Of a DNA stretch of 64,000 bases, positions 7,101 to 13,187 are shown piece by piece. The position numbers and the translations under genes are program-made. The DNA lies in NCBI GenBank assembly GCA_021927905.1, contig BLLK01000046.1, positions 1 through 64,000 on the forward strand. Direction: 5' to 3'. Position 1 is the stretch's first letter. Every line of letters starts with the position of its first letter. Under the pieces are notes generated by a model. It was not told the origin of the DNA. It was given only the letters and a program-made list of their open reading frames with translations, and did not search any database. This DNA comes from Chaetoceros tenuissimus (lineage: Eukaryota > Bacillariophyta > Thalassiosirophyceae > Chaetocerotales > Chaetocerotaceae).

Positions 7101-8095
7101 TTTGACCAAGATTTGATTGTAGTATTAAAAGATACTATGTCCGGTTTTAAAGACATCAAAAAAGTTCCTTTATTAGAGTCTCCATTGCCAATAGGAGTTG
7201 AATCACGGCCTGATAAAATAAGGTCTAAAAGCAGTCTTTCAGCTTGTTGAGCGGCTGCTTTTGCTGCCAAAGGATTTTTTTCTGATGCGGCGATGTTTGA
7301 CCAAGTGTTCAAAGTATTATTGTAGAGGTAATCCACTTTTCGCAATTGATTGCCCGAGTCAGTCCTACTTTCAGTATAAACCTTGGGAAATGGAGTGTTT
7401 AGTAGTTGCCGCAATATATTTTCTGCCAAATATCCAATCCTCATGTTTCCAGAATCCTGATAGTTTCCCTTATCATTTTGATGTTCCTTATTTCGTTGAA
7501 GACAAAGTCGTCCCAATGATTGTATTGTTTTGAATGTACAGTATAACACCCCGTCCATTTGCCTACCTGTTATCCTTTCCTGATTCGCGAAGTGTGGTAG
7601 AATCACTGATGTCATGAGTGAATGACAGAACTCAGGGCCACTAAGAAGTATTGGAATGGAGTCTTGAGAAACATGACTCAACGGAATATGTGATTTACTC
7701 TCTGCATAGGAGTTTATTAGTTTGATTGTATCACCAATTAGTTCATCATTGACCTTTGTCTTGTGTGTGTCTAGATATTGCGAGTATACTTTTGGATCCC
7801 GTAGAGACTGGATGTGAAGAGCCAATTCTTGTATTGTTTGTTTTTTATTGCTTTCACATTGTGCACCAAAAGAGCTTCCAGACTTTATGTTGGTCTTTTT
7901 TCTTTCAAAATTCAATTTGCTTTCATCGAATGCTACAGTTGTAGACCTTCTTTTCAAAGATGTACTCTCTGGTTGAAAGAAAGATGATCGACTTGAGACG
8001 ATATTTTTTCTGATGCTTTCATTATTTGTTCTTGACCATCTACTATGAACATTGCCCCTAGATATTCTCACAAAACTACTCTTTATTCGCGACAT
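4111..8095 (-). CDS. Pentatricopeptide repeat (PPR) protein
   Basis: Two exons, 8095-6605 and 6525-4111, joined across a 79-base intron (donor caa/gtaagt, acceptor tatcag/gtt), give 1301 residues in one frame. Many PPR motifs of the form P-[DN]-x-x-[TS]-[YF]-[NS] are visible, for example PDTIAYNSLL, PNTFTLHTVL, PNVNSYNILL, PDNYTYASLL, PDKFTYSKIM, PDIYCYNSII, PDGFTYYLLL and PNEHTFNLML. PPR tracts bind single-stranded RNA in organelles and act in processing, stability or translation. The N-terminus is rich in arginine and serine and poor in acids, fitting mitochondrial targeting. No signal peptide with an A-F plastid motif is seen. The first exon starts head to head with the SET-domain gene. 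Confidence 0.88.
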
Positions 8096-12219: not shown

Positions 12220-12300
12220 TTTGTATCTCGAGCATCAATGTCAATGTTAAAAAACTTCTTCATTGAAACTGTCATTCATGTTGGCAGTGTGGGTAATTCA
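12220..12300 (-). promoter_or_regulatory. Candidate SECIS element in the peroxidase 3' UTR
   Basis: Downstream of the peroxidase stop on the minus strand there is ATGA (12279-12276), then 11 bases (atgacagtttc), then an AA, a loop, a return strand (aacattgacat) and TGAT (12237-12234). The two strands next to the quartets pair at most positions (A-T, T-A, G-C, C-G, A-T, G-T, T-A) with two or three mismatches. The order ATGA, about 11 bases, AA, return strand, TGAN is the eukaryotic SECIS layout. The helix below the quartet is weak, so this is a candidate only. Its place fits the in-frame UGA. Confidence 0.5.
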
Positions 12301-12315
12301 TTCAGAAAATTGATT

Positions 12316-13187
12316 CTATACACTCTGTAGTTCATCAATTATTGCGGCTTCCATTTCGAACAAAGTTTCTTTCTTTGAATAAAATCCAACAGGTACACCA
12401 TCGCGTCCAATTAAATATTTGAAGAAATTATGAGTTACATGATGATCGGGCAAATGTTTTTGAAGTGATTGGTAAACAGGGTTATGATCTAGTTTTGATT
12501 TGTGAAACAGCATAAAATTTGGATTATAGTATTGGTCACCAAGGAATCCTTTCACTTTCTCTTCTATTTCTTCGTTTGTACCTTGTTCTTGTCTGAAATC
12601 ATTCGTAGGAAAGGCCTTTGTGAATGCCTTGTTAGTTATTGCTCTTACGAGAAAAATGATACTTCTACTCCCAGAGCACTTACCAAAATCACCAGCTCAT
12701 CGAGATGATCGCCTTCCTTTGGAATTGAATATTTTTCCAAAAACGATTTTATATGAGAGTAGGTGAGTTCAGTCTTTCCTCATTCCGAGGCCACGTTTAT
12801 TACCAAGGCTACACGTCCAGCATAATTTGACAATTGAAAGAGTTCTCCCTTTTGTTTCATGGATGGATATTGAAGACTAAATATAGAATCTGTAGGGACT
12901 ACATCATCTTGTTGTGGTGCGTCTATCGCCCCTTCGTGAAAGACAGATTTTCTCAAGTGCTTGGTTTCGACTTTGTGTTCATGAGCAAACTTTTCACTAT
13001 AATGAGAGAAACGAAATCTCGCTGCAGCTATGGTCAACATTAAGACGATTAGGAACAATCCAAAATCGACCAGAAGAGATCGCTTTCTAATTCTTCGTCG
13101 TTTCCTTGAGCCGGATCTTGATCTAACATCAAGCGGTTCTTCTTCGGTGTCGACTTGCTTGGCTGCAGATGCACGAGAACGTAACAT
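12316..13187 (-). CDS. Selenocysteine-containing glutathione peroxidase, membrane-anchored
   Basis: Two exons, 13187-12684 and 12615-12316 (intron of 68 bases), give 267 residues if the TGA at 12782-12780 is read as selenocysteine (residue 136). The sequence before it, VALVINVASE, and after it, GKTELTYSHIKSFLEKY, match the active-site region of glutathione peroxidases, where this codon is Sec or Cys. Beyond the intron, VIL joins AFPTNDF, then PNFMLF and HNFFKYLIGRDG follow as in the family. An N-terminal hydrophobic stretch (residues about 40-60, LVDFGLFLIVLML) after a basic region suggests a signal anchor. It reduces peroxides with thiols. Two family positions differ: Gln of NQF is Asp and Trp of WNF is His. 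Confidence 0.85.

Follow-up and report, generated by a model that had tools for sequence, protein, structure and literature searches.

Selenocysteine (Sec)-containing glutathione peroxidases (GPx) are already known in diatoms, and the published account of Thalassiosira pseudonana counts two GPx, SelT, two SelM, two SelU and MsrA among 16 selenoproteins (PMC2375036). In algae, GPx rank with the most widespread Sec proteins (PMC7539508), and a selenium requirement is listed for three Chaetoceros species (PMC6254913). Here we describe a further example, encoded in a Chaetoceros genome within the window (the whole 64-kb stretch of DNA analysed, corresponding to the first 64 kb of contig C33, with a G+C content of about 38%), for which we found no paper in the accessible parts of the open-licence literature on diatom and Chaetoceros selenoproteins. 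We read it as a nuclear diatom selenoprotein gene of the GPx family in which the UGA at codon 136 is translated as Sec, a reading to which we assign a probability of roughly 0.9 on the strength of sequence comparisons. Like the T. pseudonana Sec-GPx, as these are described, the gene combines GPx family membership with a predicted active-site Sec and a candidate SECIS element in the 3' UTR, and its genome, like that of T. pseudonana, also encodes putative SelT, SelM, SelU and MsrA selenoproteins. Unlike the algal and diatom Sec-GPx in the descriptions cited, the window GPx features a predicted anchor ahead of the catalytic domain, as well as replacements of Gln by Asp and of Trp by His.

Gene structure and family assignment

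The gene lies on the minus strand and is composed of two exons. Exon 1 (13187-12684), delimited by translation, ORF and splice checks and by Pfam and PDB matches, starts with the ATG at 13187-13185 and encodes residues 1-168, while exon 2 (12615-12316) encodes residues 169-267, including the AFPTNDF and HNF motifs, and ends with the TAG at 12318-12316. They are separated by a predicted phase-0 intron of 68 nt (12683-12616), which features GT-AG borders (GTAAGT...CAAAG) and an internal ACTAAC, and within which the exon 1 frame, if left unspliced, runs into a stop codon. The in-frame UGA (12782-12780) falls at residue 136, the catalytic Sec/Cys position by translation and alignment, in the context NVASE-U-GKTELTY. 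Readthrough and splicing would yield a 267-aa protein with U as residue 136, and the 267 codons contain no further stop or frameshift and the intron is clean. Standard ORF calling truncates the protein at residue 135, as the preliminary description had anticipated: the ORF listing gives a 135-aa frame (13187-12780, minus strand) terminating at the UGA, so that annotations probably omit or mislabel the protein.

The same description had placed the UGA at the GPx Sec/Cys site and had family sequence continuing on both sides of it and across the intron, and alignment of the spliced protein with GPx families bears this out. The protein matches the Pfam GSHPx profile (PF00255) at E 1.5e-18 and 66.8 bits (curated cut-off 27) over residues 107-218, a match that spans the UGA as well as the splice site, and is matched by 41 distinct PDB sequences, nearly all of them named as GPx or GPX4-derived designs and the top one being a GPx (E 6.1e-15, residues 102-257). 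The alignment with GPX4 also crosses the UGA and the splice site, at 38% identity over the aligned part, and the window GPx shares with human GPX4 (5h5q, 9j6l) the NVAS-x-U/C-GKT, AFP.N.F and NF.K.LI motifs. With U typed as C for the motif alignment, the Sec/Cys motif NVAS-x-[UC]-G-x-T is present as NVASEUGKTE, with N131, A133, S134, C136, G137 and T139 in the invariant columns, and the motifs flanking the UGA are intact. Altogether, about 120 residues of family sequence lie beyond the UGA, across the intron.

Ahead of the domain, a transmembrane signal anchor is predicted at about residues 38-57 (13076-13017, minus strand), where hydropathy peaks at 2.55 over 19 residues from residue 38 and where the hydrophobic stretch is preceded by the basic run RKRRRIRKR. 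These features suggest a type II membrane anchor, and an N-terminal anchor is an unusual trait of this GPx. GPX8 has a type II membrane topology. Like GPX8-type proteins (3cyn, 3kij), the window GPx would have a single N-terminal anchor with the GPx domain behind it, its own topology being a prediction from hydropathy; unlike them, it has a putative Sec in place of Cys and no KDEL-like end.

Selenoprotein genes and Sec machinery in the genome

We searched the genome (41,027,912 bases in 68 contigs) with the profiles PF00255, PF10262, PF01625, PF13911 and PF08806 and obtained eight places with one TGA within the domain match: three GPx (the window gene included), one SelT-like, three MsrA and one SelM. 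Three SelU-like genes with a UGA in the UxxC motif (L035, L036 and L037) were found by examination of reading frames. One of the MsrA places, L030, was rejected as a UGA gene: its TGA falls outside the active-site motif, which is in another frame, and is read as intronic, and no AATGAC accompanies it. The families searched thus comprise ten UGA genes, nine of them besides the window GPx (L002, L003, L016, L031, L032, L035, L036, L037 and L039), corresponding to two GPx, one SelT-like, two MsrA, three SelU-like and one SelM gene. The names SelT, SelM and SelU are presumed from the Pfam match. Both of the other GPx genes carry their UGA at the same codon as the window GPx.

The Sec machinery was surveyed for tRNA-Sec, SepSecS, selenophosphate synthetase (SPS), eEFSec and PSTK. 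tRNA-Sec is found at five places above the Rfam cut-off (63 to 74.5 bits), in three of which ARAGORN also calls a tRNA-Sec with anticodon TCA; SepSecS is present at E 5.6e-113 and SPS at E 1.5e-75, the latter in a Cys form by reading; eEFSec lies at L021, with a match to PDB 5izk at E 9.3e-26; and a PSTK-like gene scores E 2.9e-12, under the curated cut-off. Sec machinery, one of the features by which eukaryotic selenoprotein genes are recognised, is found in the same genome as the window gene. A further locus near a tRNA-Sec, L019, was considered as eEFSec and set aside, as its sequence, named by reading, looks like an ordinary EF-Tu. The SPS locus (L018, G000:C19:93680-94678, plus strand), whose active site reads as Cys and not Sec, has a stretch of dehydrogenase-like appearance ahead of the synthetase.

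The five tRNA-Sec genes (L006-L010) carry two different variable and T arms, and their stems mostly still pair despite the changes; multiple tRNA-Sec copies are described for the diatom Fragilariopsis cylindrus (PMC5330540). One of them (L009, G000:C34:1126986-1127071, plus strand; 69.6 bits) has the loop CCUUAAA with anticodon UUA, which would read UAA, and features C and not U at position 33, with stems that pair as in its sister genes. It is probably a decayed tRNA-Sec copy; were it expressed, it would act as a Sec tRNA at a stop codon other than UGA. Introns of eukaryotic tRNAs sit just 3' of the anticodon. L010 (G000:C54:1808110-1808207, plus strand) contains a 12-nt intron-like insert at this point, and an intron-containing eukaryotic tRNA-Sec is reported for Daphnia (PMC5330540).

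The candidate SECIS element and its shared form

The candidate SECIS element occupies 12276-12227 on the minus strand, within the 3' UTR. Its 5' core AATGAC (12276-12271), assigned from sequence and from the form shared with other genes, is followed by helix II (arms 12270-12261 and 12240-12231, with 9 of 10 positions paired), an unpaired AA placed by folding (12260-12259) and the 3' core CGAG (12230-12227), with TGAT at 12237-12234 as an alternative. TGAT is the more usual 3' core sequence, and is the one that the preliminary description had proposed together with an ATGA 5' core and an AA. The element scores 11.8 with CGAG against 9.1 with TGAT, which leaves a weaker helix of 8 pairs and a bulge, and unconstrained RNA folding returns helix 12270-12261/12240-12231, keeps the AA unpaired and places CGAG in the position of the 3' core. 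The ATGA 5' core and AA of the earlier layout are thus retained, and the actual 3' core is probably CGAG, seven bases beyond TGAT. Eukaryotic SECIS elements are described as having 10-13 nt from NTGA to AA and 15-39 nt from AA to GA (PMC2375036); the window element, with 11 and 29 nt, respectively, falls within this rule, which both candidate 3' cores satisfy.

The 3' UTRs of all ten UGA genes contain (G/T)AATGAC. Measured from the first stop-codon base, the distance downstream to the start of ATGAC lies between 43 nt, the value for the window gene, and 91 nt. Scoring assumed a helix II that immediately follows the 5' core and precedes a [TC]GA 3' core, with a limit of 8.6 that was set by L037 and not by the window gene. 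A helix flush with AATGAC is present in 10 of 10 UTRs, with scores from 8.6 to 16.6. The choice of AATGAC as core, of the helix score and of its limit was made after these same UTRs had been viewed, while the quartet and spacing were prior knowledge. The best 3' core of L032 is CGAA. As controls we used 110 distinct 3' regions following ORFs of at least 150 codons, which are mechanical stop-to-stop runs and not proven genes (116 at the outset, from which three selenoprotein stops were removed to give 113 before identical regions were merged). AATGAC occurs at 20-130 nt in 6 of the 110, none of which reaches 8.6 with that core, and a single control region does so with any ATGA core. The 3' regions of the Cys-GPx gene L001 and of L030 have no AATGAC element. 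All ten UGA genes end in TAA or TAG, compared to TGA stops in 36 of 113 control ORFs. In a MAFFT alignment, only the 5' core of the ten elements came into register.

Taken by itself, the ATGA/AA/TGAT spacing is not rare, as it occurs twice in the window against 0.87 expected and at least twice in 19 of 100 shuffles, and the folding energy of the window element does not stand out from that of sequences of like composition (z -0.60). The core, helix and position are jointly rare: when the initial 200 nt of the window UTR were shuffled 5000 times, an AATGAC core attained 8.6 in 68 shuffles and 11.8 in 3, and a score of 11.8 with any ATGA core was seen in 74. Both strands of the window together contain 62 AATGAC, five of which reach 8.6, including that of the candidate GPx SECIS; upstream of the other four, at 7622+ (9.3), 18179+ (12.0), 37023+ (12.8) and 55576- (8.8), inspection of the frames by eye recognised no selenoprotein. 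The signature formed by AATGAC and the helix thus carries information when it follows a gene containing an in-frame UGA and is insufficient alone.

An Rfam search of the window at the gathering cut-off returned no SECIS, a permissive search of the window UTR with SECIS_1 (RF00031) gave no match, and genome-wide the same model, with 133 of 890 candidates scored, likewise yielded nothing at E 10. As it also misses the other nine UGA genes, SECIS_1 seems insensitive here, and AATGAC with a flush helix soon after the stop codon provides a simple lineage signature that finds SECIS candidates the Rfam model misses. Two energy-based scans were discarded: the first (-4 kcal/mol limit, TGA-only 3' core) missed the GPx element in the window and listed six others, and a relaxed version recovered no AATGAC element in the six UGA genes scanned, while listing other structures in three of them.

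It is conceivable that the gene encodes a selenoprotein and that its SECIS is a 3' UTR stretch other than 12276-12227, given that the UTR is AT-rich, that folding energy is not decisive and that the proposed element has a mismatch in helix II and two possible 3' cores. We consider this improbable, as every one of the four best-ranked candidates within the UTR's initial 260 nt overlaps 12280-12227, and the leading one shares its core with nine other genes, at a similar position. Overall, the preliminary reading of the locus as a selenoprotein GPx finds support in the homology across the UGA, the Sec machinery, the further UGA genes and the shared SECIS form.

A divergent active site and its relatives

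The catalytic tetrad of GPX4 is described as Sec46-Gln81-Trp136-Asn137 (PMC7869902), to which U136, D174, H230 and N231 align in the window GPx. The Asn137 equivalent is retained as Asn231, while those of Gln81 and Trp136 are absent, with Asp174 and His230 found in their place; together with the N-terminal anchor, these replacements distinguish the window GPx from human GPX4. The earlier assignment to GPx therefore stands as to family, and does not extend to a textbook active site.

To place these replacements, we considered 80 loci from a bacterial collection (the best 80 of at least 478 confirmed) and 80 from viral contigs (the best 80 of 151), many of which are near-copies, with 115 remaining after removal of short and more than 90%-alike sequences; the eukaryotic comparison covers the PDB and the same genome. 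Among these 160 best relatives, the Gln column reads Gln in 90, Asp in 63 and Asn in 7, counts biased by search patterns that permitted Q, D or E at this position. The Trp column, which the search patterns left untouched, reads Trp in 159 of the 160 and a gap in the remaining one, and Trp is also retained in the GPx genes of the same genome (L001, L002 and L003). Since Trp is found in 159 of 159 readable relatives and Asp is common, Asp appears as a known variant and His as the odd one, and the aligned His230 in place of the catalytic Trp is unusual. The active-site codon is TGT or TGC (Cys) in all 163 aligned GPx hits of the whole set. The Asp is shared with NDF-type GPx from bacteria and viral contigs (e.g., L044, L045 and L129), some of which also share a one-residue deletion after NDF; unlike the window GPx, these proteins have Cys and retain Trp. 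In the tree, the window GPx lies on a long branch (1.89) apart from its three paralogues and has no supported kin (78/88, long branch).

That long branch and the loss of the catalytic Trp are what would be expected of a decaying GPx copy, in which a Cys codon has mutated to the nonsense codon UGA, or function has been lost, and the divergent active site reflects lost constraint. We regard such decay as quite unlikely in view of the 267 codons free of other stops or frameshifts, the clean intron, the position of the UGA exactly at the Sec site between intact GPx motifs and the 3' UTR element common to nine other UGA genes. Another reading, in which translation does end at the UGA, a 135-residue membrane protein is made and the downstream frame goes unused, corresponds to the result of standard ORF calling. 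It is very improbable, as family sequence continues past the UGA and across the intron and the truncated form would be without most of the GPx fold.

If the window gene is a selenoprotein gene, as we favour, its SECIS would recruit a SECIS-binding protein and eEFSec with Sec-tRNA, and the ribosome would insert Sec at UGA 136 and proceed to the TAG at 12318-12316. The product would be a type II membrane-anchored selenol peroxidase, whose GPx domain would face the lumen or the outside and would reduce hydroperoxides near the membrane. Because the active site departs from the Sec-Gln-Trp-Asn tetrad, the rate and the reductant of the enzyme are uncertain, and only tentatively do we propose a predicted membrane-anchored GPx-family selenoenzyme that would use a Sec-Asp-His-Asn site in its stead. 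Were such a site active, selenium might take on the part otherwise supported by Trp in GPx enzymes; another option is that the protein serves as a redox relay or sensor and not as a bulk peroxidase. The His-for-Trp site would allow the need of a Sec-GPx for individual tetrad residues to be tested in a natural variant.

Among the viral-contig relatives, NDF-type GPx with Cys and Trp kept are found at L124, L127-L129, L133, L135, L136, L144 and L146, on contigs of up to 297 kb, and those sampled in the tree form one clade with L164 and L173. In the genome of the window gene, a degenerate GPx-like gene (L005, G000:C32:1464980-1465297, plus strand) scores 25.2 bits, below the Pfam cut-off, and reads NLPLVCDGS at the expected NVAS-U-G position.
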